A stretch of 64,000 bases of DNA from Mugil cephalus (Eukaryota > Chordata > Actinopteri > Mugiliformes > Mugilidae): positions 3,149,001-3,213,000 of the forward strand of contig NC_061790.1 of NCBI RefSeq assembly GCF_022458985.1, given 5' to 3'. The position numbers and the translations under genes are program-made. The notes beneath the pieces were generated by a model, which saw only the letters and a program-made list of their open reading frames with translations, did no database searches and was not told where the DNA came from. Below, one piece after another: positions 4,813 through 63,895 of the stretch. The number at the start of each line of letters is the position of its first letter. The first letter of the stretch is position 1.

Positions 4813-5358
4813 TCAAACTTCATCATCTTCATCATCACAAACCTGTAAAAAACAAAAGTGTAACTTCTCTGATCTCTAAGCCTCCAACACATGAATAACT
4901 CCACTCTGTAAAGATACCAGAGACATTAAACTCCAGTCATTTGGTAAATAATTTGAATCAAAGCAGTAAAAACCTTTTTCATTCAGTTTCTAAAACTCAC
5001 AGCGTTTCCATCCGTCTGTGTTGTTTTCCCTAAAAAAAGACGAGAAGGAGTTAAGTTCATGTTCCACAGTGATAATCCAGGTTCATCCAGACCTCTTGTT
5101 CATATATTCATCATCTCACCTTTAGTTCTTGTCCAGATGTTGACGGCCACAACAGCTGTTGAGAGTGCTGCTACACCCACAGCTACAATGATGGACCTCC
5201 ACCAGCCTGGAAGACAATGAAGACAGGAAAACATGTTTCAGCTGCAGCTTTCTGTTCTCAGGAAAAGAGACTTTCACAACGATTATTAAGAGGACGACTA
5301 AAACCACAGCAACAATGATGTACAACACATCTGGAATAGAGATACAATAATCTCTGAT

Positions 5359-5418
<60 letters not shown>

Positions 5419-8400: not shown

Positions 8401-9831
8401 ATTTTTTGTGTGTTTTGATAACTTTGTGGTAGTTCTGCTTGTTGGCATCATATTTGGCAAAGATATATATTTTTTTTATTATTATCATATTAGCAAATTT
8501 TCATATTTCAAACTCAAATTCCATAATGCTCCATTTTTACACTGCGTAACCTAAGCTGTTACGCTGTTACCATCAAGGAACTATAGTGTCTTCTTCAAAA
8601 ACAATCTAAAAATAGCATATGTTAATATTTTTTTTCTACATTTTTTTACATCAATCTTTTAGTCCAGTTCAGTTAGAATCATAAATACCAAAAGTTTGAT
8701 TATTCTCTCACTTTTAAACCTTAATATGACAGTGTTTGTGATGGTATCGCAAATTTTTCGAAAAGAAAAACACAAAATATTAAATATTTTCAATAACATA
8801 AAAGCAATGTTTTACAAAAATCTTTTAAACCACTTAAATACTAATCACAAATACCAAAAGTTAGTTTTTTTTTAACTTTCAACCCTTCATTTGCCAGTGT
8901 TTGTGATTTCATTTCTCTTGAAAAAAAAGTGTGTGTTTTATCCTGTTACTTGAAAGTCAGAGAGAATCAGTCTGAATGTGAAAAAAGCCAAAGTGCAGCT
9001 TGCAGCAGGAGTTTCAATGGGTTTTAATGGGAGTGATTCTTTGAAATGGGCACTACAAAAAAATAAAATGAATAAAAATCAATGTTGCTACGGATCATTG
9101 ACATGTCCAAGGCTCTAATGATCCCCCCCAATAAAAATCCACTTTGCATTTTGGTTATTGAATTTTTTTGTGTTTTTTTGTGTTTTTTAATTTAATTTTT
9201 TTTTTCCAAATGTTGAATGTGTCCACACTGGGTCTATAATGACACGCAAACTATTTCAGCCACAGAAACCAGGAACTAAAACTACAGACACGAACAAGTT
9301 CATCTTTCTAACTCTATCTGTGGTTTGGTTTGATGCTGTGGTCGGCCATGACTGACAACAACTACAACATCCTGTTAACAACACACAGTACAAAGGTTGT
9401 CAAGATGTGAAGTCAATGGTGAGGATCAAGATACATTTATCTTCTTAATCTTAATTTAAAGGATTTTATTTCATCTGGCTACAGCATTTGATTCAAAATT
9501 AATCAAAGCACCGACACTTGAATGGATCTGTATCAGCAATGAGTCTATATTTATTTTAAAACACATGTTGAGTCTAAAATATATGACTTGATTGAACTGT
9601 TAGAAATCTTCACTTTGTTCTTGACATGCAAATAACTTCAGTGTATCATTCAGCACAGTGCGTCTGGGCGATCAACACAATCCATCTGAGCTCATTTCGT
9701 TGCTAGATATTAGAGACTCTTCAGTATATTTCATCCACTTTTTATATAAAAGTTAATCAATCCTTACCTGTGAACTGAAGCATCAGTATCATCAGTGACA
9801 ACAGTTTAATCCATTTGAATTCATCCATCAT
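4813..9831 (-). CDS. Two-Ig receptor copy 1, short tail without ITIM
   Basis: Predicted coding exons are 9768-9831 (signal peptide), 6304-6630 (D1), 5896-6165 (D2), 5681-5803 and 5450-5572 (two similar Thr/Ser-rich stalk exons), 5120-5206 (membrane), 5001-5029 and 4813-4842. They total 1053 bases, or 350 residues. D1 is V-like: LSCENV, an extra Cys in NCDSTTW, and GRYTCRQF. D2 has LTCSV, CRHSVKW, SSCSASV and FKCQV. The membrane exon reads WWRSIIVAVGVAALSTAVV and is followed by only about 20 tail residues ending DDEDDEV. No ITIM is present and no charged residue sits mid-membrane, so the signalling route is unclear. It probably acts at the surface of immune cells, judged only by family resemblance. 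Splice sites are canonical, and all junctions are phase 1 until the last intron. The signal-peptide exon lies 3.1 kb from D1, across LINE debris. Confidence 0.8.
5207..5330 (-). other. Second, unspliced membrane segment inside copy 1
   Basis: A good acceptor (TTCCAG) at 5331-5336 precedes VLYIIVAVVLVVLLIIVVK, equivalent to the membrane exon of copy 2 (14175-14258). The sequence after VVK departs from copy 2 and joins the intron that precedes the WWRS membrane exon, so the splice donor is missing. If used, the composite exon 5120-5330 would read through into a Cys-rich tail and stop at 5122-5124, two bases before the exon end. Confidence 0.55.
5361..5421. repeat. (GAAA)n microsatellite in copy 1 intron
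   Basis: About fifteen GAAA units lie between the second stalk exon and the membrane segment. The same repeat occupies the same intron of copy 2 (14285-14356), so it pre-dates their duplication. Confidence 0.9.
6640..7985. other. Intron 1 of copy 1, first part
   Basis: I recognise no gene, RNA or structured element in this stretch. It contains ordinary AT-rich sequence with short interspersed-repeat character around 7130-7330. Confidence 0.4.
7990..8310 (-). mobile_element. LINE reverse-transcriptase C-terminal fragment
   Basis: The minus strand reads KTFYRSTIESILTSCLSVWC, then NWKNMRRAVRIIG. This is the conserved C-terminal YR-IES-LT---WYG--- region of fish non-LTR reverse transcriptases. 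A competing frame over the same bases is its shadow. The fragment is isolated within intron 1 of copy 1. Confidence 0.75.
8400..9239. other. AT-rich intron sequence without features
   Basis: Homopolymer-rich sequence in which two similar segments (about 8640-8730 and 8820-8900) share the phrase AAATACCAAAAGTT. No coding or RNA feature is seen. Confidence 0.4.
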
Positions 9832-13388: not shown

Positions 13389-14286
13389 TTATTTGTTTGG
13401 TTTGTTGATGGTTGCGTAGAGGTTGCTGGGATCAGCTGAGGGAACGTTCACTGTGCTGTAGGTCACTGCATCACAGTCATCATCATCAATTCTACGTTGA
13501 ACCTGGAAGAGAAACAACACAACAGGACATGACCTCATGTACTCGTACCAGCACGTAACTAGAATACACAATCAGACGTCTTACTTTGTCTCTACTGTTG
13601 GTTTTCTTGGTGAAGCTGATGGAGGCGTAGGAAACACCATCTTCAGGATCAGCCTACACAGTGAAAACACACTGTTCAGGATCATGTGGATCTATAGAGA
13701 ATCAGCTCAAGCCTGTTTTCTTCTGACTTATTTCCTGTAAGTAACTAAGTGTGTCTCATGTTGTGTGCATATAGCAGGAGGTTTGTAACGCTGCCCTGGG
13801 TGTAGTGTAGTGAGATCTCACCATGTCCTGACTGGTTCCTGGTGCAGACTCGGTCTCTGCAGGGTTTGATGTCAGGGCCTGAACAAGAAGAGTCAAAGAA
13901 CATTTACAGTTCACAGTTTAGTTCATCCAGAGCAACACATCTGTACAAGTTACAGCATTAGAACACAACAGTCATGTCAACACTACAACACTGTCACCAT
14001 CATTGATCTCATTGTATCTTATCTCACGTACACACTTATAGTTTGTAGTAAAATAAACTTGTTAAACTCACAACATGAGCTGGTGTTTTGTTTCCTGAAA
14101 AGACACAAAGGTGAGAGACAGTTTAGTTTTTGCTCCGTTTTTAAATTTAAAGTTTCATGTGTGAGTTCTCTCACCTTTACTTCTCTTCCATCTGACGACT
14201 TTCACAACAATTATTAAGAGGACGACAAAAACCACAGCAACAATGATGTACCACACATCTGGAATAGAGATAGAATAATCACTAAT

Positions 14287-14354
<68 letters not shown>

Positions 14355-17024
14355 AATTTAAATTGTGAAAATGTCAGGTCATTACATGTCATAATTGTTG
14401 ATGGGCCCTTGGTTGGAGCTGATGTTGTTGGTTTTGTGTCCTCACCTGAAATAAATAAAACACAAAATATCAAAGTTTTGATCCGTAAGATAAAGAATTA
14501 GATGAAAAACATAATAATCTCCATGAGAGAATGAGATGTCACCTTGTAATGTTGTTGTTGTTGTTGTTGTTGTTGATGATGATGTTGTGTCCTCACCTGA
14601 ACAAAAATAAAAACAACTCATTAAGAACTGTTGTATAAATGGAGCTTTAATAATTTAACAGCTCAGAAAAATCTCAGTTTGTTTCTCACCTGATGGACGA
14701 CGGCTGAAGGTAAAAAGCTTCACTTCATTAGTCTCTGTAGTTACTTGACACTTAAACAGTTCATATCTATCTGTGTAACTGAAATGAGAAGTCAGAAACT
14801 TGACAGAAGCAGAGCAGGAAGACTGTGATGTTATTAATTCCTTGTTATCTTTGTCCACTTCTTGATTTTTGTGCAGCCACTTCACTGAATGTCTACATGG
14901 TTCATTTGTCCTCACAGAGCAGGTTAAATTCACCTTATCAGTGTCATTGTGTTCAGTCACTGGTGAAGATGGATTGGAAGAGAAAGACAAAGTTAGTGAG
15001 ATTAACTTCATTATTCTAATCATAATTATTGTCATGTTTCAGTGTGTTGTTCTAATGAGACACTTTGAGATGAAAACATTATGATATAAATACTCACTGG
15101 TTACAACAGACAGATCAACCTGAGCATCTGGACCTTGTTGTTGTCCTGATTTGTCAAACTGTCTGCAGGTGTAACGACCAGAATCATCATCTGTGACCTT
15201 CTTTATAAACAGAGAACAGTTTGTTGTAACTCTCAGTCTGTCTGGTTCAGATCTGATCTGTCCAAGACCAACCAGCTCTACTGATGCTCTGCTTCTTGAA
15301 CCAACAAAGAACCAGGTTGTACTGACACAGTTACGATGATCATTTATCACATTTTCACAAGACAAAGTGACGTCATCTCCATCTCTGACAGTGAAGTTGA
15401 GGTGAAGCTGTCTGCTTAGTGCTCCTGAGAATATGACAGAGAAACAAACATGTTTCTATTAATGTCAGAGTGACGATCATTTCAGATACAACACAACATT
15501 GTGTTCACATGTTCCTCATCCCTGACTGTCAAGACTGAACTAACCTCAGAGATAACACACAGCATGGCTACCTTGAGTGGTTATCTAAGATAATTTAATT
15601 AAGTACCATCAAAAAGAAATGAGCTTCGTTTGACTTTTCTGACACACGTTCATAAAGTTTAAATAACTGTGTTTTCAGAGATATTTCTCTTTTCCCTGGT
15701 ATTTATAGACTTAGGCTTTAATGATCCACACGGAAATTACTTTGTCACCATAACTTTGTTGCACATAAAAGTAAACACTTATACAAAACACAAGAAAGAT
15801 AAATGAGATTCAATTTAAAAAAATAAATAAATAAACAATGTCATCAAAAAATTTACAGAATTAGCATCATATACAAGTTGGCAAAACAGTGTTCGAGGTG
15901 TTTGGTTATTTGAGCAGTTGCATAACAACAGCGGCATGGGTCATATGAGGGAGGGATATAAATTCAAACGGAATGTGCCCCATAGAGTGTGAAGCTGGGC
16001 ACAGATGCACTGTGGTCCTTTGAACCAGATCTCCAAAGCACCTCTCATAACACACTCCTCTGGGTCCCATCAAGCACACACAGTTCACTGATCCTGCCGC
16101 CAAAGACCTCATGTTCCCCTTGAGTACAGACGGCACCGCCAACCTGAACCTATTTCTCCACTCCTCCGCTGCCAACTCCAGCCTGGCATCCAAAGTACTT
16201 CTTTAGAAAATCAGCAGCAATCTCAGGCCTCACTCCGGGCAGCTCAGGAGACATGGACAGCGCTAGCAACTGATCTCACAATGGCTGCTCCGCCGAAGTA
16301 CACAGCCAACGACCAACGACACAGCCAAAACACAAAAAGTCCAGAAAAAGAAACCAAAATAAAAACAGCACAAAAAGACAAAAATGACCAAAACCCATTT
16401 TGATTGGTTCAAGGCATTGTCACAATCACTTCATTATATAAGTCTTTATGAAGATGCTGTTATCACCCATGTACTTAATACAAGTGAGTGTAAGGTGGCC
16501 CCTTTGAGTGTGAAGTGACGATAAACCCATTGAAACCTATGATGCATGTCACAATGCAGAGCCAATAAAAGGCATCCTGGACGAGTAACACTGTCTTCAG
16601 AAAAAGTGGATCTACTCAAAGATGAAAATAAAAGAGAAAACAGCAGCAAAGAGCAGCAAAAGGAGAACCTTGACTTAATGACGTGTAGTAAAATATGAAT
16701 CTTGAAATTACTATTATTTTTTTATTATTTAGATGCTCAAAACACTCACGATTGAATGCATTAGTCATTTGCTCGTGCAGTCACACTCTGGTGGTGGTAA
16801 AGTACCTCAGTAATCACAGCAGCACTAGAGCAGACTGAAAGAAACGTGGCTACCAATCCACCACCAAACACCACTCACTCACAAATGTGCACCAGTGGAG
16901 TTCACACTAGGAGCAAAGTGGGTTAAAATATCATCCGCTTTTTATATAATGAATCCTTACCTGTAAACTGAAGCATCAGTATCAACAGTGACAGTCGTTT
17001 AATCCATTTGAATTCATCCATCAT
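13389..17024 (-). CDS. Two-Ig inhibitory-type receptor copy 2 (ITIM tail)
   Basis: Predicted exons are 16961-17024 (signal peptide), 15098-15424 (D1), 14690-14959 (D2), 14543-14596 and 14386-14445 (stalk; the first is a Thr run), 14175-14258 (membrane), 14072-14094, 13822-13878, 13585-13653 and 13389-13502. They sum to 1122 bases, or 373 residues, without a stop. D1 keeps CENV, NCVSTTWFF and GRYTCRQF; D2 keeps its four Cys. The membrane exon reads VWYIIVAVVFVVLLIIVV, then the basic KVVRWKRSK. The tail holds VSYASI and VTYSTV, both fitting the ITIM consensus, plus an NLYATI-like motif near the C-terminus. By analogy with ITIM receptors it would recruit SH2 phosphatases and dampen cell activation. 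The ligand is unknown. The 1.5-kb first intron contains a LINE piece. Confidence 0.85.
14285..14356. repeat. (GAAA)n microsatellite in copy 2 intron
   Basis: About eighteen GAAA units lie between stalk exon 2 and the membrane exon, at the same place as in copy 1. Confidence 0.9.
15906..16193 (-). mobile_element. LINE ORF2 N-terminal fragment
   Basis: The minus strand reads AEEWRNRFRLAVPSVLKGNM followed by RSLAAGS. This resembles the R-PSI-MGN-RSL-NK start of the endonuclease ORF in fish non-LTR elements. The rest of the frame diverges. It lies inside intron 1 of copy 2. Nothing else is recognised between 15430 and 16900. Confidence 0.5.
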
Positions 17025-24007: not shown

Positions 24008-26931
24008 TCAAACTTCATCATCTTCATCATCACAAACCTGTAAAAAACAAAAGTGTAACTTCTCTGATCTCTAAGCATCCAACACATGAATAACTCCACT
24101 CTGTAAAGATACTAGAGACATTAAACTCCATTCATTTGGTAAATAATTTGAATCAAATCATTAAAAACATTTTTCATTCAGTTTCTAAAACTCACAGTGT
24201 TTCCATCCATCTGTGTTGTTTTCCCTAAAAAAAGACAAGAGAAGGAGTTAAGTTCATGTTCCACAGTGATAATCCAGGTTCATCCAGACCTCTTGTTCAT
24301 ATATTCATCATCTCACCTTTAGTTCTTGTCCATATGTTGACGGCCACAACAGCTGTTGAGAGTGCTGCTACACCCACAGTTACAATGATGAACCTCCACC
24401 AACCTGGAAGACAATGAAGACAGGAAAACATGTTTCAGCTGCAGCTTTCTGTTTTCTGGAAAAGGGATGACTGTGGAAGGAAATAAATACATCTGTGTGT
24501 TGAGGAAAGAGGAAAAGAAACATGTTGAGACTTTAAACTGTGATGTTGTTGAGGTGTCCTCTGTTGTTGATACATAAGTTGTTGGTTTTGTGCCCCCATC
24601 TACAGAAAATAACACAACTAAAACTGTTGATTGAGAACTTGACTGTATGTGATTTATTATTAAGACTTAAGATCCAGATCAGTTTGTCTCTCACCTGATG
24701 GACGACGGCTGAAGGTAAAAAGCTTCACTTCATTAGTCTCTGTAGTTACTTGACACTTAAACAGTTTATATCTTGATGTGTAACTGAAATGAGAAGTCAG
24801 AAACTTGACAGAAGCAGAGCAGGAAGACTGTGATGTTATGAATTGGTTGTCTCCTTTGTCCACTTCTTGAACTTTTTGCAGCCACTTCAGTGAATGTCTA
24901 CATGTTTCATATGTCCTCACAGAGCAGGTTAAAGTCACCTGATCAGCGTGATTGTGTTCAGTCACTGGTGAAGATGGATTGGAAGAGAAAGACAAAGTTA
25001 GTGAGATTAACTTCATTATTCTAATCATAATTATTGTCATGTTTCAGTGTGTTGTTCTAATGAGACACTTTGAGATGAAAACAATACGATATAAATACTC
25101 ACTGGTTACAACAGACAGATCAACCAGAGCATCTGGACCTTGTTGTTGTCCTGATTTGTCAAACTGTCTGCAGGCGTACTGACCAACATCCTTAAGTGTG
25201 ACATTCTTTATAACCAGAGAACAGTTTGTTGTAACTCTTAGTCTGTCTGGTTTAGATATGATCTGTCCAAGATCAACCAGCTCTTCTGCTGCTGTGCTTC
25301 TTAAACCAGCAAAGATCCAGGTTGTACTGTCACAGTTACATTGATTATTTATCACATTTTCACAAGACAAAGTGACCTCGTTTCCATCTCTGACAGTGAA
25401 GTAGAGGTGAAGCTGTCTGCTTAGTGCTCCTGAGAATATGACAGAGAAACAAACATGTTTCTATTAATGTCAGAGTGACGATCATTTCAGATACAACACA
25501 ACATTGTATTTGTATGTTCTTTTAACTTACTCCACCCACTCTTTATAATTTTAATAGTCAGAAGATGTTTTTAAGGAACATGCTTAAAAGACAGCCAAAA
25601 ATAAAATCTAGGTTACAGAACACACAAATTAGTCATCTGGTCTTCAATGCAGGTTGTGTCATCTCATCTCATCTTCTACTACCACTTATCCTCACTAGGG
25701 TCATGGGGGTTGCTGGAGCCTGTCCCAGCTGTCGACAGTGAGAGGCGGGGTACACCCTGGACAGGTCACTAGTCCATCGCAGGGCTAACTGTGATGGGCT
25801 AACTTAAGCAATATATATAATAATATTGCCATTATACAACCATTACCAACAAAATAAATCGCCATTATTTAGTGATGACTCAGCCGTGCTGTAATGCTGA
25901 TTTGAGAATGTTCTAAATGTCTTATTGAGATCAGATTGCTTGGTCAGAACTACTTGTTGTATAAACAGAGACAAACAACCATTCGCACTCACACCTAGGG
26001 TCAATTTAGAGAACACCGAGGCCTAAAACTAAATTTTCCCAAACGGTCTTATCTGTGAGACATACACATAGCTGGAACAAGTTACCGCCACACATCCTGA
26101 ACAGCGACTAACTACTTACTTTCTAAAAAATCTCAAGCAGTGGTCAAAAATTAATCAGACATGTACTCACATAGCCTAAAAAGTTTTCTTAGTCTTAGTC
26201 TTAGTTTTCTGGGACTCTTTTGACTGTTTTTTTTTTTTTTTTTTTTTTTTTTTTTGTTTTAGATTTTAAGGGAGCGGTACTGCTATGCTATTGACTTTTG
26301 AATGTTTACAGTAACTGCGCATCCATTTAGAAATCTTCATCCTTGTTTGTTTGTTTTAAATAATAATACATTTAATTTTAGGCGCCTCTCTGGTACCCAA
26401 GGTCACCACACATTAAAAACAAGCAATAAGAACCAGCAAGAAACACATAAATAAACAGATAATAACATAAAACAAAAAAAAAATAAAAATTAATATTGGG
26501 ATTCTTGGACCATGTCTGTTTCGATACTGTCTGTCTGTGTCCTTTTTGGCTTGTTTCGACATTGTCTGTCTGTGTCTGGTTCTGTAATTGTCTGTTGTAG
26601 TACTGCAGTTTTAAATGCTTCTTTATCTGTGTTGTGTGGCTGCTTTAGCACTACAACTAAAATTAGCATCTGTGCTAAGACCGGCGCATTTACACTGATG
26701 TGCAATAATATGCATTGTCCCAATTCGATAAACTAATGATAATAATAATAACATGCAAATTCCACCCAGAAAGGCCTGAGCTGGACCTGAAACCAGACTT
26801 TCTCGCTGGGAGGATCCAGTGCTATCCCAAACAGGTTTGTTAATTACAAATATGTATGTGCCCTTACCTGTAAACTGCAGCGTCAGTATCACCAGTGACA
26901 GGAGTTTAATCCATCTGAATTCAGCCATCAT
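24008..26931 (-). CDS. Two-Ig receptor copy 3, short tail without ITIM
   Basis: Predicted exons are 26868-26931 (signal peptide, beginning MMAEFRWIKLLSLVIL), 25103-25429 (D1), 24695-24964 (D2), 24522-24599 (single stalk exon), 24317-24403 (membrane), 24196-24224 and 24008-24037. They total 885 bases, or 294 residues. D1 has CENV, NCDSTTWIF and, unusually, GQYACRQF. The membrane segment is WWRFIIVTVGVAALSTAVV, and the tail ends DDEDDEV like copy 1. The stalk donor is ACAT followed by GTTTCT. It aligns with the good donors of copies 1 and 2 but is weak, so stalk skipping (phase-compatible, both phase 1) is possible. Without an ITIM or a mid-membrane charge, its signalling mode cannot be inferred. 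Confidence 0.8.
25655..25800. repeat. Dispersed fish repeat (LINE-tail-like), copy 1
   Basis: The phrases TATCCTCACTAGGGTC, GGGGTTGCTGGAGCCTGTCC and GAGGCGGGGTACACCCTGGA are a familiar fish dispersed repeat. Related copies lie at 52765-52880 and 60905-61020, in opposite orientation. The origin as a LINE 3' tail is inferred. The rest of intron 1 of copy 3 (25800-26860) holds only a T-run (26227-26256) and AT-rich sequence. Confidence 0.7.
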
Positions 26932-28472: not shown

Positions 28473-30986
28473 TTATTTGTTTGGTTTGCTGATGTTTGCG
28501 TAGAGGTTGCTGCCGTCAGCGGAGGCTCCTGCAGAAGAGGAAGAAACTTTCACAGTGCTGTAGATTACTGCTTCATCATCACCTTCATCAACATTATTGC
28601 CCAGAACCTGGAAATCGACAAATAACACATAAAGCCAATTACATACAGAGAAACAAAGGCGAGTTTTAGGTATTTTTCTTTGACGTATTGAGTTTAACCA
28701 ATCACCTGGGCTTCATTGTTGGTCCTCTTGTTGTAGCTGATGGAGGCGTAGGTCACAGTCTCTTCAGGATCAGGCTACACAGTGGACAGAAGAGAATGAC
28801 AGCTCAGTACCATATGAAATGCTTGTTTTACATTTCAGGGAACAAGTAACACAGAGAAAATGTGTGATCTTACAGGGTCCTGATTGGTTTCCAGAGCAGA
28901 CTGAGTCTTGACTGGGTTTAAGCTGAGTCCCTGAAACATTCATAAAAAGGCAAAGACAGATTATTTAAAGTTAAAGTAATCATAATGTCAAATTCAGAGG
29001 GAAAACGTGTCTGAGGTAACTACAAGAAGTATTGAACGTTAGATGGACACAAGCATAAATGCATAAATGGACAGTTAAAAACTCACTGGGTTTTCAATCT
29101 TTTGTTTCTTTCGTCCTGAAAAAAAAAAAAAAAGAAATCTGAGTTTAGTTGCAACAACAGAACTTCCTGCTAATAAATGTTGCGCCTGTGAATCACCTTT
29201 CTTCCAGCTGACGGCTGCAACAACAGTCATCATAAGTGCTGCTAAACCCACGGCCATGATGACAAACACCCACCATCCTGCAGAGAGAGAAACCATGAAC
29301 AACATCCAGACTGCAGCAGCTTTCTCAAATTTTAAGAACCCAAAGGCAAAGGAGGAGAGAAATTGACACTAATGTTGAGTGTGTTGCCAACTAGTCAATG
29401 ACATCACACATAAATACATAGTAGTAATGCTTAAAAATAATGAAATCTAGATTCTTGACCTGAATACACAAAAGATGCCACTGAGGCTTTTATTCAAGGT
29501 AATTGAAGTCTGAACACTCTCAGCTCCATCATAACTTCTGTTTCTCCCATGGTGCATTCACTGACATCAAGAAGAAAAAAACACACTCTACCACCACAGC
29601 AATAACTAATAGAACCCTCACCTGTCTTCTAAGAGGAGTCCATGTTGTTATGGTCACATGATCAGTGACTTAAAGGATTATGGCAAAGCAGTGAAGTTGA
29701 CTAGTTTCTACAATCCCTATTGCACAGCAACATCCAAAACTGTTACACTGTTGAAATGTGTTCATGTTATTATTTGTTGCTTTGCTTTGTTGCTTCTTCA
29801 ATGTCAGTTCCTCTTCTATTACAGCTATTACATCAACAGCGAGGTTGATGCTTGAATACAAACAGGGGCAGCTTTAAAGAACTTACACAGTCCTATTACA
29901 TTTCTAACAATATTAATAATTCTATAGTTCAAAATCAAGGTGTATTGCAACACTCGGTTAGCTTTAGGCACAAACAGCCTAGGGTTAGGGTTAAAGAGAC
30001 AGTATCAAAGTAAGTGTTATCATAAAACTACTGTCACACAAGGTAATTATTTCTTCTCACCTGTTTTTTTATTTGAAGGTTGAATATTGAAAGTAAACTC
30101 TGTCATGTTTCCACCATTCGTCACTTGACACTTGAATAATTCATAATTCTTTGACGTGTAAATATGATGAGAGGTTGTGAAAGTCACATTGGCTGAGCAG
30201 GAGGAGGATTGTGACGTCTTCAGCTCTTTGTCTTTTTTATCAATATCTTTACCCTCATACAGCCACTTTACTGTGAGTGGACATGTATTATGTGTTGACA
30301 CAGAGCATTTTAATGTCACTGTGTTGCCGTCCTCATATTCAGTCACTGGAGAGGATGGAGATTGAGAGAGAAAGACAACAAGAGTAAAATGAACTTCATC
30401 ACTGTGATCATAATTATTGTCATGTTTCACTATGTTGTTCTAATGAGACAGTTTGACCTGGAAACATTATGATGGAAATACTCACTGGTAATAACAGACA
30501 GATAAACCAGAAAGTCTGCTCCTTGTTGTCGTCCTGATATGAACTGTCTGCAGGTGTAAAGACCAACATCATCATCTGTGACCTTCTTTATAACCAGAGA
30601 ACAGTTTGTTGAAACTTTCAGTCTGTCTGGTTTAGATCCTGTGCTGTTGTGAATCTTCCCATGTTCAAACAGTGTTACTGTTGCTGTTGTGCTCGCAACA
30701 CTACTGAAGATCCAGGTTATACTATGACAGTTTTCTTGATGATGATTTACATTTCTACAAGGCAAAGTGATTCCATCTCCATCTCTGACAGTGATGGAGT
30801 ATTGTCCGGTTGCTGTTGACAATATCATTTGTTTTTGTTAATGTAACGTTTTTTTACTAATAAACCATCAATAGTAAAGTTAATTAATGTAAAGCCAGTT
30901 CTGAATGTTTATGCATTCTTACCTGGAAACTGAAGCATCAGAATCATTAATGAAAACATTTTAATCCGCCTGTATTCAGCCATCAT
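28473..30986 (-). CDS. Two-Ig inhibitory-type receptor copy 4 (ITIM tail, no stalk)
   Basis: Predicted exons are 30923-30986 (signal peptide, beginning MMAEYRRIKMFSLMIL), 30486-30812 (D1), 30061-30345 (D2), 29197-29277 (membrane), 29087-29115, 28874-28930, 28706-28774 and 28473-28607. They sum to 1047 bases, or 348 residues. D1 begins ATGQYSITVRDGDGITLPC and keeps NCHSITWIF and LYTCRQF. D2 is 15 bases longer than its relatives and reads LKCSV, CPLTVKW and FKCQV. I found no stalk exon between D2 and the membrane exon (WWVFVIMAVGLAALMMTVVA). The tail carries VTYASI and VIYSTV, both ITIMs, and a final NLYANI motif. It is the most diverged member. It has the shortest first intron (110 bases) and no ETS pair of the conserved form. 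Confidence 0.85.
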
Positions 30987-35522: not shown

Positions 35523-38500
35523 TCACAGCGCGTCTTGAACCTTCAGCAGCGACTTCAGGTGAACGGTCATTTGCTCTCGGCTCTGGTCGCTCTGCTGAGG
35601 CTCGTTTTCTCCGACCCAGTGGCTGGGCGGCTTTGGTAAGACGCTGGGAGAGGGGGGCTCGCTGAACTTAGCCCCGGCGTACACCTTCTCTCCATCTTTG
35701 AGGTATTCGGCTTCAGCAGGCAGGGCGTTGGGGATCTTGACGTTGTTCGAGGCGTGGAGGGGTTTCTTCTGCTCTCGGGGGGAGGGCTGACGGGGAGTTG
35801 GGGGCTTAGCGGGGCTGATGACATCCCTCCTCTTTGTGGAGTGGGGAGCGCTGGGCGTTGGGCTCTGTTTGGGCTTGTGGCTCCGGGCGTTCACATTCTG
35901 GGTGATCTGGTCGTGTCGAGGCAGGTTGCGGCTCGGTTGGCCTCCGGGCTGCGCTGGCCCTCGCTCCGATTTACCCCCTTTGGATTTCAGCAGCTACAGA
36001 AGAGAAACAGCATTAACCCATGAGAAATAAACGGCCACAAGATTAAAACCACTGACACTTAACCAATAAGGGGCGACTGTAACCTCCCAAATTGGAGTAC
36101 GATGCAAAAGGAAAAGGAAGACTAGTAATATGTATAAGACTGTGTTAATGTGTGTTACAATAAAACTATGTACAGTTGACCAGATATCTTTACAATTTAC
36201 AGTTTCACAAGGGAGCATTTTCACGTTTACAAGATTTTTGGGTGAAACCCCCATAAGTCTTGCACGTTTAGGCCGACCATATGACGAACTGGTTTTCATG
36301 TTTGATTGGAATCGCACCTTTCTGAATCCAGGTCCGGTTTCATAGCAACAACATCAATGGTGAGGAAGAAAAAGATTGTTTGGGTATGTGTCAACATGGT
36401 CTTAGTTTGGGAGTCACATTCAGCTCAATTTGATCTCAAGTGAGACCAATAACCTTTAAGTTAAACTTAGACAGACCTTATTTGTCATTTAGATTAACAC
36501 CAAAATGAAAACATGCAGCCGAGACATAACTATGGACAGTGAATTAGAGTAAAACATGGAGTTTGTTTATCCCGTGTGAATGTACCACATGAAATACAGA
36601 CACTGGGGCATCATTTCTGAATCACAGGATGTCCCCGCGTAAAACTAATCCCGTGCCAATGGGACTTAAGATGATCTCATGTGATGCAATGTTGTTCTGG
36701 GGAATCTTCTCTTGGCCACTTGGGGGCAGCAGAAACCAGATAACACCAACAATAACAACACCACAGACCCATTCAAGGTTTGTGAAGAATGTGATGGCAC
36801 ATGACACTATAGCCTGTAAACAACGGTTGACATATTTCAATGGGCTGTTTTGACAAGAATGGACGAGGAAAGCGCATTTTATAGAATTTTATAGAATATA
36901 CTAATATACTTTGTCATTTTATAAAGGTGACTCTGACTGATGGGTCTATATACACCGACCTCTACACTCTCATTCTCTGGATGGACAATTTGACCAAATG
37001 AGGACACGGAGGGGACGAAGTCTGGTCTGTCTTTAGCAAGTGAAGCCTCTAAAACAAAGATATTACAAGAAGTAAGTGGAACCACTGTGGAGGGTAACGT
37101 AGTAAATGCGACTTCTGCTTGGACACACCTGAAACATACAGCTTATGCTGCGTTACCTAGCGGTAAATGATTAACTGAACGTAATTTCACAACTTATTCT
37201 AACCCATAATGTTATCCAGGCTGAAACTGATGATGCATCACACGTTAATCTTATCTGATGTGAAGTGTGCGTGTTGATTCTCTCACTCCAGTCCTTTCTT
37301 TTAATCACCAAAGACAAACCAAAAGTTGTCTACAACGGGAAGTCGCTGGTATGGTGACAAAACTTTAAGTTAGTGTTTTTGATTTTCCAGTTTTGGCGCC
37401 AAAAAATACAACAAGACGACATTTTCATGGTTGAAAGCGATGGTGTTCGCCTCAAGTCTCCCTCTGTTTTGCCTCCAGTTAATATTGTGACGTCACAGTG
37501 ACGTAGGACATGTAAGCGTCCATTGTCTTTTAAGTTATACCAACACCTGGTAAACTGTTCCAGGAAACATTCCTTCACTATGTTATGGTTTTTCTCTCTA
37601 AATAGCAGCATTGTTTATCAAATTTATTACTAAATTAAAGAACAGAAAGTCCTCTAAACTTAAAAACCAATCTCACTCTCATCCAACTTCCATCTACTTT
37701 AACCTATTTTCATCGGACTCATTCTCCCATGAACTGCCTCAACATGTCTCGCAACTACAAAGTAGGCGTCTCTCGCTCCTTCCACAGTAACAAAGAAACC
37801 CGTTGCAGGGTGACGTCTTTGGTTTCGGGTGTGGTTTCAGGCCCGAAGCTTCCTCATTTGACTTTACAGACAAATCTGTAATCGTTAAGCAACCTGGGAC
37901 ATTTTTTCTGCCTGAATCAGCCAGTTGGAAAGAGGAAGACGAGTCTGTTCATCCACACAAAGACGGCAAATGCGTCACTTTGAAAATGCCTCGGGCGCAA
38001 CAGTGTAATCCTAATTAAATTAAACAGATTGAGTACTTGAGATAATAAGTATTAAAGTGAGGATTTAATATTATTATTAGTTGTTTTATGTATAAACATA
38101 GCATATCAGACACAACCCAGGTCCTAGAAAGATGCAATATATTCTCATAAACTTTAAAATAAATACACAATAAAACTGAATTACATCTAAGCTCCACTTT
38201 TAAGATGTTAGAAGACAGACACCACAGATGTTAAGGGCTGTAGCTGATTTCTAAAGACAAATATTGGGTTTAAATTGATTTTTGACTACACAATAGTGAT
38301 ATTGAGCAAGTTAATTACCCTCTGAGGTCAGTTCACACTGAGACTGAGAGGAGTTTCTATTCCCGTTGTATTTTTTCATGTCTATTTTATTTTACTATTT
38401 ATCTTTTATACCCTACACTTTATATTCTTGATATCTTCTTTTGTATGCTGCAGTTTCCCCATTCTGGGACAACTAAAGGTTTTCTTAATATCTCAATTAC

Positions 38501-44200: not shown

Positions 44201-47200
44201 AGAGGGAGAGTAAATATTTCTTCACAGTCTCTAAGTGAAACTAAACTTGGAAAGTTGAATTAAAAATAGTTTTGTCTCCACTGTTTATGAATTCACGTAA
44301 TCCCGTACAATAAAAAATGAACCAGGACTTGTTTTAACAATCCTCTGTCATGCTGTCCATTCTCGCCAGTTTAAAGTGCTGTGGTCTGTTTACTTCGTCT
44401 CATTATTCTCTGCATAAAACCAGGAAAAAGAGGGAAAAGTTTTTTTTGCCAACTATGTGAATCTGTGCCTGACGTGCAGCGATCAGGCATAACATTATGA
44501 CCACCTTCCTGATATTGTGTCAGTCTCCCTTGTGATGACACATCAGAGAATGGACATGGGCCTTCTGAGGGTGTCCTGTGGTGTCTGGCAACATAACATT
44601 GAGGGGAGGGGCCTCTGTAGATCATTCCACAGATACTTGATCAGTTTGGGATCTAGTGAATTTGGAGGCCAGGTCAACACCTTGTGCTGTTTTTTTTTTT
44701 TTTTTGTTGTTTTTTAAATTGTTCCTAAAGCATTTTGTGAGTGTGTTCATGTCAAGCTTCATCCTGGGTGTCATTGCTATAGGGTGGGGGTGTCTGGTCT
44801 GGTCTAGGTGGGTGCTACATGTCTAAGTAACATCCGCACATCAATAAACGTGCAGGCAGAACGTTGAATTGTTACAAGATGGTTTAAATGTTACTTTACT
44901 TCCGCTGTCAATGGTCATAATGTTGTGGCTGATCTGTGTATGTATATGTGTGTGTGTATTGAGAGGAGAATTAATTAGCTGTTTTATAATCCTGCTTCTA
45001 AAAATTCTGCAAATGTTTATGTCTTTGTCAAGAAGGCTTTAGAAATCAAGATGATTAACGTCGTTGTTAGTTCCGTCTAAACCGGGACAGTTTGGAGGAG
45101 GAGTTTCTACCATTTTCATCAAACAGTTTCATATCTCTGACAGAATCTTTCACAATGAACTGAGTGGATGCATCACCATCATCATCATCATCACTGACTA
45201 AATTATTGGAGCTTTTCACTGGTGACTGAAGGCACCGTTGTCAGTTCAGCAGTGATTCACAGCGTGTTACTTCCTCATTAAAATCCTATTTAAAGACACG
45301 GTAAACCACAGAAACAACCTCACAACAACCATAACAACGCTGAGCTGAATGTGACAACATGACTTAGCTGGAGGCTGTCAGTGATCCAAACACAACTTAA
45401 CCAAACAAAGTGATACTAGCTTTTAGGTTGCACTTCATGCGCCGAGCTGTGTCGATGGATGTCTTGACACAGTCAGCTTGTTCTCAGATATGAATTTCTT
45501 TTGCTATTTACACTTAACTGAATCTCCAGCTTGTGCATCATTTCAGAAAGAACTCAAACTGGTGTACATTATGTACATTCTAAGCATAATTTTATGCACT
45601 TTTCCATGAAGATCATCTTTGACAGTGGTCGTTGGAAATGCTAAAAATACACATCTAATCACTGCATGTTTAGATTAGTCACTTAACAACATGAAAACAT
45701 GTTAAAATCAAATTTTTCACAATAATCCCTGTTGCTCGGGGACAACTGGACTAACGTTTGAAATTATCAAAGACAAATGAAGTTTAGAAAATCCTTAATT
45801 TAAGGCGGAGAACCAGCTTTTATCATAAAATTAATTCGGAGGAGGATCCTTTGTGGTGAACAGTCGCTGAAGTGAGAGTTCACTCATGGTTTTTCAGAAA
45901 GTACAAGTGCGATCACAAAGGAAAACCACAGCTTCCTGCTGAGGTCTTTGACTAAAAGTGGAAGTAGAAGTGAAAACGGAAAAGTTTTCTCGCTGCATGT
46001 ACAGCACATTTAAATTTGCTATTTGCCTAAAGCCTCCGGATCTCAACAGCTGTTTACACAAGCAATTAATCACTTTTACTGAGACTTTACTCCCTTCAAT
46101 CGTGATCACGTTGATGTTGGGAAGATCGAGATAAGAAAAAAATATTTATCCTGAATCCCTTGCTTGATTTTTACGGCACAGATATGCAGAAGTACCTCAT
46201 AAATCTAGATAAATAAACAGATGGTTGTCTCAGAAAGAAACATTATATAAACTACTCCACATCCTCTTACCTCAGCGTGGCCTCCGGGAGTCAGCGTCTT
46301 GCTGCAGCGCTCACATTTAAGGCAGAACTTGTGCCAGTCTTTCCCTAAAGATGACACTTTCTCGGCTGTGGAAGAGAGACAAACCACTATCGTCATCATC
46401 ATCGTCATTTAAATTAATGTGGAGTAACTGAAGAACTACAGGGTTACATGCTCACATTAAGACTTAGTCCTGGAACACAAAATGGTTACAGTTACATGGT
46501 CGTTTGTTTTGTTCATGTGAGTCAGATTTCATGCAGAGAAGGATTTAGGTCATGATATATCCAAGAAAAAAAGGGCAAGCTCAAACAAAAGCAATTTGCA
46601 TCCCGAAGACCATTCCATTACCGGGTGGAAATTTTCTTTTACTGTAACATTATTATATAACATACAACACCCAACACAGATCACAATATCACTAATATCC
46701 CAATGGTTTCATCAAAGTCTTCAGCTTTAAAAGACTTGGACAGACCTTCGTCATGAGTTTCTGATGGGCAACACCCACAGACGTTTGACCCAGGTCCCAT
46801 CCACTAACATAGAGGGGGCGGGGCTTATATCACCTACACTGCTGCTGGACACCAAGGGGGGCTCAACTTGCTTTAATTGGCACCACATTTGAGGCGCTGT
46901 CATTGCGACCACTTTTGGTCGCCTTCCAATGTATATCTACAAGTGGCATAAAGTAAAGTATCATCTGTCTAATGACTTATAGTCATGGACTATAACCACG
47001 TAATAGACTGATCACTTTTTCAGTGTCTGTTTATGTTTGAGTTCACCGTTTATTCACCATGTACAGTCTTATTTGCACGTGGATATTTGCCGTAGTATTT
47101 GCCGTATTTTGTATTATTTGTATTTCTTATATCCTACTTCTAAGAGTTCACATTGGTGGACTGGGTGGATAGAATGAATAGAATTTCATTCTACAGGAAA

Positions 47201-52764: not shown

Positions 52765-52880
52765 AAATGACTTGTCTAGGGTGTACCCCGCCTCTCGCCT
52801 GATGCCAGGGGATTGGGATAGGCCCCAGCAACCCCTGCGACCCTAGTGCAGGATTAAGCAGTACAGAGGATGAGATGAGA
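52765..52880. repeat. Dispersed fish repeat (LINE-tail-like), copy 2
   Basis: GGGTGTACCCCGCCTCTCGCC and GGCCCCAGCAACCCCTGCGAC match the reverse complement of 25655-25800, ending in GAGATGAGA units. Confidence 0.65.
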
Positions 52881-52957
52881 TAAATAATAAATGAAACAAA
52901 GATGACTGGACTTTGGTTTTTGGTTTTCTTGAAGATGTTTCGCCACACATTCACTAA

Positions 52958-56599: not shown

Positions 56600-57140
56600 G
56601 TTGTACTCCCCGTAGAAGGACTGGGAACGAGACTGTTCAAATCTCAATCGAGAACTTAATTGGCATGATGTTAAGTCCAACATCTCAGAAGTTTCACGTA
56701 ACTCAGATCATCAGCTTCATGTCAATTTTATTCACAGGACATATCCAACACCTGTTAAACTGCATCATATGAAAATCATTAATAAGAATCTTTGTACTCT
56801 ATGTCAACTGAATGCTCAGGGGACATTTCTCCATTTGATATGGACTTGTGGACCTCCCCGTTGTCCAGTTGTGGAACAATGTTGCATCTAAACTTTTAGG
56901 TTTCCATCTATGATGTGGTACCACCAGTAGCCAGTAGCTGAATGTCTAAATGTCTAAAAGCCAGACGTGTGCAGTGTTTGTTGGTCTAACAGAGACGAAG
57001 ATGACTGCGACTCGTTGGAAGCCACCTCATGATTTGTCTGCTTGACCGTGGATACTTTCCTTTTTGGATGACTTTTTTATGGAACTCTCCACAGCCTGCA
57101 TTAATGGTGCTTCGAGAAAAAACTTTGGACACTTGGCACA
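56600..57140 (+). mobile_element. L1/Tx1-type LINE C-terminal fragment
   Basis: The plus strand reads HRTYPTPVKLHHMKI-like sequence at about 56735, then CTLCQLNAQGTFLHLIWTCG (56792-56851), a zinc-knuckle-like C--C---HL-W-C block. Out of frame downstream come TRWKPPHDLS and MELSTACINGAS (57008-57110). These match the end of L1-type reverse transcriptase ORFs, including the RWKP and MELST phrases. Stops and shifts show it is dead. Confidence 0.65.
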
Positions 57141-59019: not shown

Positions 59020-60369
59020 AATGGACTTACTTCCTCTTTTGCAGAGTTCTAGGAACTATGCAGAAGCACACCAAAAGTTCCTCGTGAGTGGCATATCTGC
59101 AACGTAGTGTGCAGATCATTCAGTGCATGAATCATCTTAGCACTTACTGAACTTAGTATGGACTTAGTATAATCACTTAACTTGGAAACAGCTTTGGATA
59201 TAAGATAAAATATGCCTTTACTCATCCCACGATGGAAAAATTAATTATAATAAGTTGAAATATTCCTTAAAATTTACAACAATTTTTAACATACATGCAA
59301 TGCAACAGCTCATTGCTCAGATTACAGTACCGATCTCTGCCACTGTGTTGCAAAATTCTGTTACTGTGACCACAGCTTCTTCTAAATTAAGTTGGAACTA
59401 AAGTCATCACGTGATCAGTTTTCTGAGTGCTCTGCAACGTGTAGGCAGCGACTTTAAGTGTTTGCACTGAGAATCTATTTAAAATACGATGACATCTGAA
59501 TTGGTTTCGACCACAATCCTCCATTCAGCTTACCAGGTTAATAAGAGGTAAAGATGCATGTGCAGAAGGTAATTTGCGATGGATCTGCACTTGTCTCTGT
59601 GTGTTTTATGTGTATGCATGTGCATAACTTTGCAGTATAAGTAAGAGACAAATGTATTTAATGACAGTTTGATCAGGCCTTTCATGATGTATTAAAATAG
59701 CCCTGAGCACAGTGTGAGAAAATCTGCATTTCTGCAATGTGACAATGAGCAGCAACAGAGGATAACGATGAAGACTTAAAATAAACACACACCAAAAAAC
59801 AGGAAAGCATTTAAAGTTGAGATCATGACTGTTAAACAGGAACGGCCTATATGCAGAAGTACCTCTGTTGAAAGGATGTTAGTTGTGGTTTTTGTTCGAT
59901 GCAGCATCCACTATAAATACTGTCTGAGAGTTTTAGTTCTGAGCTCAACTTCCTTTAAGAATTAGAAAAAAAAATCCCCTTTTTCATCTTGGCACAGCTG
60001 TGTCCTGAAGTGTTTAAAGTTGCACTGTTCACTCTGAAATGTCTCTGACTGTTTACTAAAATGCAAAACCTGTGTAAGTGTCTGGCTTACTGTGACCTCT
60101 GATCTCTCAAATGGAGTATACTTCTTAGCGAGAGATGGGTGATGACATCATCGTTTTTGATACATTCTTAAAGTTGATGTGTGAACATTCAAAGCAGTTT
60201 GCAGCAAACAAAAGGCAGAGGTGTGAAAAACACAGACGGCTGTACTGCTTGAGGACACAATGCGTGACAAACCACAAGCAGACTTCATCTTTAAGTAGAA
60301 ACCTCTTTAGAGACTGTCACTCATCAACATGAGGACGAGAGCAGAGGACGAGGCAGACAGAGCAGCACA
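59020..60369. other. Upstream flank of the Ig-less receptor gene
   Basis: No gene is recognised. An ACTTCCTTT (ETS-like) stretch lies at 59949-59957, about 410 bases before the start codon, farther than in the array genes. Promoter elements are otherwise not evident. Confidence 0.35.
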
Positions 60370-63300
60370 ATGCTTAAATTCAGATGGATTCAAATGTCTT
60401 TATTCCTGATCCTGATGCTTCAGTTTCAAGGTAAGGATACACAGAGCACACATTCGGTTCCATCACTGCATTAATATCACTAATGTCACTTTACTCAGTG
60501 TTCTTCCTGTAACTCAGACGGACAAGTTAAGGTTGGAACTTAGTGATTTTAATTGACTCTTAAAACCAAAGATGAGACACAAACTTTTTTTGAATACGGG
60601 AATATTTCAAATGATTTAAAAGGACATAAAAGCAACGTGAACAGAGAGTGAAAAGCCCTCACACCAGATAGGAACTCAAACTATGATTGACAGCACTCTG
60701 CTCTAATGGTGTGAGTCCCTGAAAGACTGACAGTACTGTCGTCCAATGGCACCTGAGGGGGCTCCAGGGAGAGGCAGTCAACTCATATTAATGAGAAGTC
60801 AGAGTTTTTTGAGTTACCTCTAACTTATGTTTGTAATTACACAAAATATTTGAAGTTTAATTATAAGTCCTTGTTGTCTAGTGTTGAATTGGCAACTCAG
60901 AGTATAATGTAGGCCTGTGATGGACTGGTGACCTGTCCAGGGTGTACCCTGCCTCTCTTTTGATGACAGCTGGGATAGGCTCCAGCGACCATAGTGAGGA
61001 TAAGCAGTAGTAGATGAGATGAGATGAGATGAGATGAGATGAGATGAGATGAGATGAGATGAGATGAGATGGGATGAGATGAGATGAGATGAGATGACAG
61101 TATAATGTTTTGATTGTTGCACATTGATGTTGTTCAGCAACACCAACATCAGGACCAGTGCCATTAGGGGCAACAACATCAGGACAGACAAACACAATAA
61201 CGTCTCCATCCAACAACAATTCAACAAATCAACAAGGTAGTGACTGAATCTCTCTCTTCTTATATCTGAATGTCAGACTGACTCTTGACTGTTGGTGGAT
61301 ATTTTCTGTGATTCAGTCTCGGTTTTCATCCTTGTTGTTTTTCTCAAGATCCAGCTCATGGTCACAGAACTGGAGTCTCAGTGTGGTGGTACATTTCCGT
61401 TCCTGTGGGTTTAGTAGCAGTCTTACTAACTTTGATTGTTTCATGTAGGAAACACAAAGGTGAGGGTATTCACAGATTCAAGTTTGATTTAGTCAAATCA
61501 GTTTTTTCTTTGTTCTACCTAAACTAAACTCTTGCCTTTGCAGGATGCCAAAGACAAATGGAAGAGAACACTGTGAGTTTTAAACACTGAATAATGAATA
61601 CATATGCACTTAAATACACAGACTTTATTAAACTGATGTCATCGTCACTGAGCAGTTCTACACAATAAGTAGACAGAAAATAAGAAGCAGTAAAACTGAG
61701 TATACACCAATCAGCCACTTCATTATGACCACTGAGATGATTATTGACAATTCCTTGTTCTGCTGGGAAACTTTTGGACATGGCATTCATTCCTGTGGAT
61801 GTTACTTAGGCATGTAGCACCCACCTAGACCAGACCAGACACCCCCACCCCATAGCAATGACACTCCTTGATGGCAGCAGCCCTCCCCAGCAGGATGCAG
61901 CCTGACACAGACACTGTCGAAGTCAAGCTACAAGCTGATTATTAATTCAAAACTTGTTTGCTGCGTGTTATTCTTAAACACAAAGATAGTTTCTGGCAAG
62001 GTTATTCTGATGATTACTGATGATTTACTAAACAAAAGTTCCTTAGAGGTAAGAGGAGACACTGTCTAGGTGTTTGATGCCTAAAAGCCTTTTCATAGTG
62101 AACGAAAAATTTGTGGGCCGATTACCCCGGCACTTTATCAACTTGGCTCGGCTCGGCCTCCATGTGAACAGGAATGCTGCATTGACCCGCTAATTTACAC
62201 AGTGATGTTGATGTACCTGCCTGTTAGATTTTAGACGGCCTGTTAGGCTCTGTCTTTGTAGAAGCTCCAGGGCTGCGAACAGCTCAAAAGCAGAGCAAAG
62301 TTTTGGTATGCCCTTGAAAGGTCGGTCTCTTATGAGAGTGGAGATTTTTGTCCATTTTTTCAATCAAATGTGTAGTTACATGATCGTTTGCTGTGTTTTT
62401 TGAGCTCCTCGCAGCTTTCAGCTCAAAAACAGAGCAGGTACATCAACGTCATGGTATAAATTAGTGGGTCAACACAGGATGCCCGGTCACATTGAAGCCC
62501 AGCGGAGTCATTTGACCAGCGTCAAATGTTTTTCTGGTTATGGAAAGGACCATTTTTTCTATTTTTTTGTGTGATAAATTGTTACAGGAATGTAGCCTAG
62601 TTGTGGATTAAGAATTATAGTCATCTTCATGAGCATTTATGTGTGTGGACATGTGTACAGTCAATCGCATGACAAACTCTGTAAACATTATAAGAGATAA
62701 ATGTTTCTCCATTGTACCTCTTTGAAAGGTACAGTGGTCTCCTATTGTAATTACAATATACTGTAATTGTAGGAGCCAGATTGTTAATTCTTCATTTCTT
62801 GTGGGTGTTATGCATGTTTGTGCCAGTAGGTGACAGTATGTTTAGGCCCATGGTTTTCTGTCTATACAGTGAGGTGGGTTAATCAGCGCAGGTGCACACA
62901 AGGACATGTAGCCTATTGTTCTGCTAAGTTTATGCTGGTTTATTTGAGACACAATAACTTGTTTGCATAAAGAAATTAGGAAATGTTTGGACAATTTGGC
63001 TATTTTACCTTGCCTCTAAATTCACTAGATCCCAAACTGACCAAGTATCTGTGGGATGATCCGCAGAGGCCCCTCTCCTCAATGTTACCAGACACCACAG
63101 GACACCATCAGAAGGCCCATGCCCATTCCCTGATGAGTCACAACTCTTTTACAGGCACAAGGCAGACCTACACAGTATTAAGAAGGTGGTCATAATGTTA
63201 GGCCTGATTGGTGTATATCCATACATACTGAGAAGTAATTATGTTGTGTTTACTGTGTACGCCCAAGGATCATATTCACTACGCCTCCATCAGATACACC

Positions 63301-63599
63301 AAAAAGGCCGAGGGTAAAGCTACAGTCATGGTAAGTTTTCTAATGGATCATAGTGGAGATGTTAAGGATTCAATCAGGACTTTATGTTGTGTTAAGATTG
63401 AGAGCATGAAATGTGTCCTAATGTTCTACACTAGAGTTGTGATGATGATGATGATGGTGATGATGACCATGAAGATGGCACTGTGACCTACAGCACTGTG
63501 AAAGTGTCCTCCTCCTCCTCCTCCTCCTCCTCTTCTTCTCCTGGATTTTCCACTGACCCCAAAGACCTCTATTCTACCGTCAACAAACCAAAAATATAA
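60370..63599 (+). CDS. Ig-less ITIM membrane protein related to the receptor array
   Basis: Predicted exons are 60370-60430 (signal peptide, MLKFRWIQMSLFLILMLQF), 61138-61236 (Thr/Ser/Asn-rich stalk), 61349-61459 (membrane), 61544-61572, 63268-63330 and 63435-63599. They total 528 bases, or 175 residues. The membrane exon reads VSVWWYISVPVGLVAVLLTL then CRKHK. The tail carries IHYASI and VTYSTV, both ITIMs, with an acidic Asp run, a Ser run and a final DLYSTV motif. The exon phases are those of array copies 2 and 4. The 700 bases between signal-peptide and stalk exons contain no D1 or D2 exon; no CENV, TTW or YTCRQ codons are seen on plus. The 19-residue tail exon is also missing. The acceptor at 63267 is AAG where relatives have TAG six bases upstream; here that site reads TAC. 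It may be a functional Ig-less adaptor or decoy, or a gene that lost its ectodomain and is dying. Confidence 0.6.
60905..61100. repeat. LINE-tail-like repeat seeding a (GATGA)n array
   Basis: GGTGACCTGTCCAGGGTGTA and GGGATAGGCTCCAGCGACC match the repeats at 25655 and 52765. The copy runs directly into about sixteen GAGAT units at 61013-61096. It lies in the signal-to-stalk intron of the Ig-less gene. Confidence 0.75.
62090..62560. mobile_element. Nested foldback (MITE-like) element
   Basis: The arms around 62175-62222 (TGACCCGCTAATTTACAC) and 62434-62477 (complement TGACCCACTAATTTATAC) are long imperfect inverted repeats. Outer ends (TTTTCATAGTGAAC against a GGTTATGGAAAGG complement) roughly match. 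No ORF. It appears inserted inside the Tc1-like element. Confidence 0.55.
62983..63195 (+). pseudogene. Tc1/mariner transposase C-terminal remnant
   Basis: LPLNSLDPKLTKYLWDD is a decayed form of the S-N-P-LNPIEH-WD block that carries the last part of the DD(E/D) transposase. The ORF then drifts and stops at 63195, just before the right TIR. Confidence 0.65.
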
Positions 63600-63667: not shown

Positions 63668-63895
63668 TCTTGTCTCGATCTTCTTCTCTTCTTGTCTTAT
63701 CTGGTCTTTTCTCTTCTGGTCTTATCCCTTCTTGTCTTGTCTCGTCTCATGTTCTTCTCTTCTTGTCTTATCTGGTCTTATCTCTCCTGGTCTTGCCTTA
63801 TCTCTTCTGGTCTGGTCTTATCTCCTTTGGTCTAGTCTGGTCTTGTCTTGTCTCCTCTGGTCTTATCCCTTCTGGTCTTGCTTTGTCTCCTTTCA
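63668..63895. repeat. Pyrimidine-rich minisatellite (TCTTCTGGTCTTATC-like)
   Basis: About 15 irregular units of TGGTCTTATCTCTTC type lie 70 bases after the stop of the Ig-less gene. Two plus-strand ORFs of SxLxSGL repeats are products of the repeat. The last 100 bases of the window show nothing further. Confidence 0.75.

Follow-up and report, generated by a model that had tools for sequence, protein, structure and literature searches.

An ITIM-bearing paralogue without Ig domains in a two-Ig receptor cluster of Mugil cephalus: a coding-competent gene and possible transmembrane adaptor

Close to a cluster of two-Ig receptor genes in Mugil cephalus lies a further paralogue which retains exons for a signal peptide, a short outer stub, a transmembrane span and a cytoplasmic tail with two ITIMs, and which has lost both Ig domains, D1 and D2. 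It occupies positions 60370-63599 (+) of the window, the stretch of 64,000 nucleotides that was analysed (assembly GCF_022458985.1, contig NC_061790.1, positions 3,149,001 to 3,213,000, forward strand). There is good support for the intact frame and for the absence of the Ig block; the uncertain step, which sets our confidence, is the present function of the product. We lean tentatively to the reading that the gene is a coding-competent, Ig-deleted paralogue whose product may work like the adaptors LST1 and SIT. A preliminary description of the locus had placed an adaptor-like role beside gene decay; its gene model, the Ig loss and both of these alternatives find support, but the dimerising role which it also proposed does not.

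The four two-Ig paralogues, G1 to G4, are all encoded on the minus strand. G1 (28473-30986) consists of leader, D1, D2, transmembrane (TM), short, 19-residue, ITIM and last exons in one open frame, and G3 (13389-17024) is likewise a full two-Ig inhibitory receptor in one open frame; each carries two ITIMs in its tail. G4 (4813-9831), with two Ig domains and a short tail ending VCDDEDDEV before the stop, also gives one open frame in a model for which the leader pairing and the choice of TM exon are our own. Two TM-like exons occur in G4, near 5321 and 5206, and the second was used in the model. G2 (24008-26931) has leader, D1, D2, stalk, TM, short and last exons, and its model is not in one frame because the stalk donor could not be placed; by analogy with G4, with which it shares the same type of last exon, its short tail probably lacks an ITIM. 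V-set is the best Pfam match for D1 of G1 and G4, and D2 of both genes passes the C1-set cut-off, with Ig_2 scoring higher in G1. Extra leader exons with family promoters were seen at 11391-11328 and 975-912 (-); the first is followed by no Ig exon before the next leader at 9831 and may be an orphan or an alternative G4 leader, and the unit at the second extends to the window edge. Elsewhere in the window an exon at about 46271-46365 (-) presumably encodes a CRIP-type LIM domain, judged by motif, an ORF at 35526-35993 (-) carries a PNRC motif (Pfam PF15365, E 3e-6), and 56616-56888 (+) gives a weak match, below the cut-off, to the zinc-binding region of reverse transcriptases (E 0.0015) and is perhaps a retroelement remnant.

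The focal gene comprises six exons and five introns, all GT-AG, which splice to one open frame of 528 nt, or 176 codons including the stop, with no internal stops. Exons and junctions agree with the earlier description of a receptor exon set without D1 and D2. On the plus strand, exon 1 (60370-60430) encodes the signal peptide (MLKFRWIQMSLFLILMLQFQ) with a hydrophobic core MSLFLILML, ends in phase 1 and was aligned with six family leaders; exon 2 (61138-61236) encodes a stub rich in Ser, Thr and Pro in which two N-glycosylation sequons, at residues 47 and 48, overlap; and exon 3 (61349-61459), placed by paralogue similarity, encodes the transmembrane span and a juxtamembrane cysteine, Cys86. 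They are followed by a short cytoplasmic exon 4 of 29 nt (61544-61572), which resembles that of G2, by exon 5 (63268-63330; phase 0-0) with the first ITIM, IHYASI, and an acceptor shifted relative to G1 and G3, and by exon 6 (63435-63599) with the second ITIM, VTYSTV, Asp and Ser repeats, a third motif, LYSTV, and the stop. The exon end phases (1,1,1,0,0) are typical of the local family. The splice sites are phase-compatible, as had been stated, but this tells less than it seems to: both D1 and D2 are exons of phase 1-1, and the frame would be retained automatically after their loss.

By descent the focal gene is a member of the local two-Ig family without that family's ectodomain. Its leader, TM, ITIM and last exons have homologues of identical phase in G1 to G4, although an ITIM exon is missing from G2 and G4 and the focal short exon is similar to that of G2 only. 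Its leader is 81% identical to the G1 leader over 54 nt (E 2e-10), and its TM, ITIM and last exons outscored all 200 shuffles against the paralogues tried; for the TM exon against G1, a second test found the score reached by one of 500 shuffles. The short exon with its donor matches G2 at 83% over 42 nt (E 3e-7), half of the match being intronic, and the 29-nt exon alone is suggestive only (eight of 500 shuffles as good) against G2 and shows no similarity to G1 or G3 (450 and 406 of 500). Similarity of the focal stalk exon to five paralogue stalk exons is also only suggestive (9, 15, 40, 42 and 65 of 500 shuffles), and the exon was assigned from its phase, composition and splice sites. Past length changes driven by repeats, the tail ends in the family frame, with 63553-63599 aligning ungapped to G3 up to the stop. 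This mixed resemblance, of the short exon to G2 and of the ITIM and last exons to G1 and G3, indicates that the focal gene branched off long ago and was not newly copied from any one of them.

That both Ig domains have been lost, as the preliminary description claimed, is upheld by scans of the plus strand with Ig queries and of its ORFs with Pfam. Six Ig queries (D1 of G1 to G4 and D2 of G1 and G3) recovered all four minus-strand pairs of D1 and D2 exons with E values of 1e-24 or better, but matched nothing on the plus strand below E 0.01, and the best plus-strand score between 58 and 64 kb had an E value of 7.6. No Pfam Ig match occurred among 20 plus-strand ORFs of at least 85 amino acids from 31 to 64 kb, or among four minus-strand ORFs. 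Sense D1 and D2 sequences of the four paralogues scored within the range of shuffles against intron 1 (0.16-0.91), and antisense D2 of G2, G3 and G4 exceeded most shuffles (0.04, 0.02 and 0). The antisense signal comes down to one wrongly oriented 14-nt match (60790-60803) and was taken as chance.

In the place expected for D1 and D2, intron 1 contains a repeat stretch at 60910-61032 (+), presumably of SINE type, and an 86-bp array, (AGATG)17, at 61012-61097 (+). The SINE-like stretch is 82% identical to 25787-25659, a copy which lies upstream of D1 in G2, and part of it is 75% identical to 52768-52881. Recombination between repeat copies flanking a D1-D2 block would leave the present picture of intron 1. 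The copies in intron 1 and G2 differ at 12 of 120 aligned bases, from which the intron 1 copy is about 0.05 per site old, assuming equal divergence from one source. If this copy was involved in the loss, little enough time has passed since then for the frame to have survived by luck; if D1 and D2 were lost earlier, the frame must have been kept.

The cytoplasmic tail also differs from those of G1 and G3. The 19-residue tail exon, reported as missing, is indeed absent: intron 4 contains no match to it inside or outside an inserted element, and the corresponding exons of G1 and G3 do match each other. The insertion, which takes up most of the intron, is a transposable element of about 1.5 kb with estimated ends at 61703-63217; its inverted ends (61688-61732 and 63186-63230) are imperfect, with 76% complementarity, and a second copy occurs near 44.48-44.94 kb. 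The changed acceptor of exon 5 was likewise correctly recognised, with 12 nt instead of 24 preceding the conserved TACGCC; TGTGTAG at the ITIM-exon acceptor of G1 and G3 has become TGTGTAC in the focal gene, and the shift removes exactly four codons before TACGCC and keeps the frame. Over its whole length the exon has 63 nt, compared with 69 nt in G1 and G3. Since exon 5 is a phase 0-0 exon, its skipping would yield an in-frame protein with one ITIM.

If the signal peptide is cleaved near residue 20, as assumed here, the outer part is a stub of about 44 residues, 45% of which are Ser, Thr or Pro. It constitutes no ligand-binding ectodomain and has no Pfam match above the cut-off. Four weak Pfam matches to the spliced protein fell below the cut-off and were dismissed as chance. 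The span is uncharged (best 19-residue hydropathy 2.31), and the only cysteines, at 86, 92 and 123, all lie level with the inner membrane face or behind it. Since the stub lacks a dimerising outer cysteine and the span is uncharged, the sequence gives no support to the proposed role as a dimerising partner. The two ITIMs are spaced 35 residues apart, compared with 30 in G1 and 29 in G3. Two ITIMs at such spacing would suit the tandem SH2 domains of SHP phosphatases. Both motifs, at residues 103-108 and 138-143, fit the consensus (S/I/V/L)xYxx(I/V/L) as quoted in the accessible text of PMC2442602, and the third motif, LYSTV, is of the LYxx(V/I) type shared with G1 and G3.

A short outer part, a single span and tyrosine motifs in the tail constitute the plan of adaptors such as LST1 and SIT. 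LST1, according to the available sections of PMC8111073, is a protein of 97 residues which, like the focal protein, combines a very short outer part, one span, a membrane-proximal cysteine, in LST1 a palmitoylation site, and two ITIMs, and it binds SHP1 and SHP2, which indicates that such a plan can work. The same sections report that LST1-deficient mice show a normal LPS response and lower TNF-alpha in colitis, so that an inhibitory role is not clear-cut even for this analogue. Unlike the focal stub, the outer part of LST1 contains a dimerising cysteine; the likeness is in plan and no sequence relation is claimed. SIT, in the accessible part of PMC3177817, is similarly a membrane adaptor with tyrosine motifs, which inhibits TCR signalling and whose loss raises T-cell signalling. 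A title in the reference list of that paper describes SIT as a disulfide-linked dimer, in contrast to the cysteine-free focal stub, and here too the likeness is in plan.

For the focal protein, the following sequence of events may be envisaged. The D1-D2 block would have been deleted, perhaps via recombination between repeats, and the gene product would still be made, as a type I membrane protein whose stub of some 44 residues could carry glycans. In the absence of a binding domain no ligand of its own would trigger it, and control would come from its location and from nearby kinase activity. Src-family kinases beside activated receptors would phosphorylate Tyr105 and Tyr140, and SHP-1 or SHP-2 is predicted to bind the phosphorylated pair through its tandem SH2 domains, which would set a steady inhibitory threshold, as for LST1 or SIT. 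The earlier suggestion of a constitutive sink for phosphatases comes close to this reading, and we prefer to speak of a tonic recruiter. More doubtfully, we propose that a receptor became a ligand-independent ITIM adaptor by a single in-frame deletion of the Ig block, and was then kept and reshaped under selection of its own with a different promoter. A literature search for Ig-less ITIM genes, with most subscription papers outside its range, yielded nothing on point and does not prove that none has been described.

Among fish receptor families, DICPs have two Ig domains, D1 and D2, ITIM tails and clustered genes, and the local family is possibly of this kind. Naming the family via solved structures was tried and gave generic Ig matches only, and a scan of viral and genome contig collections with a D1 alignment found no relatives of the local D1. 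NITRs resemble the local family in their clustered Ig receptors, ITIM tails and separate leader, TM and cytoplasmic exons, according to the accessible text of PMC2442602, but their second (I) domain has six conserved cysteines, compared with four invariant ones in D2 of the four local paralogues, and of their J or J-like motif (FGXG and/or TXLX(V/L/I)), the FGxG half, which was the half examined, is absent from G1 and G3. NILTs, as presented in the available part of PMC3022915, share with the local family Ig exons in phase 1, ITIM exons in phase 0, and a tight cluster with pseudogenes and transposable elements; their CX3C motif does not occur in the local Ig domains, where cysteine spacing was read by eye in alignments.

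Almost as likely as the adaptor reading is early decay, namely that the Ig block was lost recently, that the gene is of no use, and that its frame has stayed intact through the short time elapsed. A similar fate is documented in salmon NILT clusters, which include pseudogenes, one of them without an exon (accessible text of PMC3022915). Several features of the focal gene which speak for decay are at the same time points against the adaptor reading: weak acceptors, a missing promoter element, an upstream ATG and a raised dN/dS. The lack of a poly(A) hexamer also counts against the adaptor reading. Three of the five acceptors are weak (2.3-3.6) and the mean of all five is 5.8, whereas the 16 G1 and G3 acceptors average 10.7 (p 0.02); donors are normal (9.0 against 8.3, p 0.77). 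These scores are a rough guide, and the D1 acceptor of G1 itself scores -1.8. Unused AGs outscore the acceptors in use at 60518 and 60970 for intron 1 and at 63153 and 63292 for exon 5, the latter two scoring 5.5 and 4.8 against 2.3 for the site used.

In the flanks, an element GGAAGYGA.AT, which we take to be Ets-like, is conserved in each of the six paralogue leaders (minus strand; -100 to -106) and was not found in 400 nt upstream of the focal gene, and TGACATCA lies at -227 in the focal gene as against -101 in four of the six leaders. An out-of-frame ATG at -41 opens a frame (60329-60409, +) which overlaps the start codon and counts only if the transcript begins upstream of it; ATGs within 110 nt upstream also occur in three of the six leaders (G2, G3 and G4), none nearer than -59. 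Neither AATAAA nor ATTAAA occurs in the 401 nt between the focal stop and the window end, and the nearest poly(A) hexamers follow the stops of G1, G2, G3 and G4 by 252, 303, 684 and 282 nt. A TC-rich degenerate tandem array of 15-bp units lies at 63682-63879, downstream of the focal stop.

Against decay stands the absence of any disabling change in the 528 coding nucleotides and ten splice dinucleotides, the weight of which depends on the time available. In neutral simulations with indels the open frame survived in 45%, 8%, 1.9% and 0.3% of trials at 0.01, 0.03, 0.05 and 0.08 per site, and with substitutions only in 67%, 29%, 13% and 4%; at 0.15 per site the values were 0 and 0.2%, respectively (4000 trials each; by choice, transitions were set at 2:1, indels at 0.1 per substitution and the frame-breaking share of indels at 75%). 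On the focal branch dN is 0.25 (bootstrap 0.17-0.35) and dS 0.20 (0.03-0.37), estimates which rest on three sequences and 110 codons. The focal frame cannot have drifted freely for long, and was constrained for most of the branch if dN does not exceed the neutral rate; this argument fails if divergence equals the low bound of dS (0.03), where 8-29% of neutral frames survive. A loss mediated by the repeat would be younger than about 0.05 per site, a range in which neutral survival with indels rises from 2% to the 45% seen at 0.01, and this favours decay. Branch dN/dS is 1.26 (0.59-9.9) for the focal gene and 0.55 for both G1 and G3, the focal value exceeding those of G1 and G3 in 94.8% of bootstraps and lying above 1 in 74%. 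The higher ratio accords with decay, but a high value over the whole branch is unexpected if constraint ended recently, its interval being wide. Pairwise tail dN/dS (0.78 for focal-G1 and 0.73 for focal-G3) was set aside as an underpowered test of maintenance, the intact pair G1-G3 itself giving 0.89. Survival of the motifs alone was also set aside as a strong argument; their neutral survival is 50% at 0.05 per site and 4% at 0.26. Because the codon alignment allows only gaps in multiples of three, such gaps were not counted as evidence.

An assembly artefact, with the Ig exons omitted at one of the intron 1 repeats, the AGATG array or the SINE-like copy, is improbable: the 86-bp array and the repeat copy do sit where the exons are missing, but the window contains no N, and the gene is not a collapsed copy of G1 or G3 because its differences from them extend to the promoter, the ITIM acceptor and the 19-residue exon. 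It is very improbable that the tail exons are part of a bigger gene on the plus strand with Ig exons of an unrecognised kind or elsewhere, for although the Pfam scan covered only ORFs of at least 85 amino acids, none of the 20 on the plus strand in 31-64 kb matches an Ig family and a leader matching those of the family lies about 700 nt upstream of exon 2.

If the gene is decaying, it would be an ordinary casualty of a fast-changing receptor cluster. If it is expressed, it would represent, within one cluster, a step between receptors and adaptors, two classes of immune regulator, and the intact relatives alongside would make the step from receptor to adaptor testable. The adaptor reading, if true, would provide a route by which transmembrane adaptors may arise from clustered receptors.
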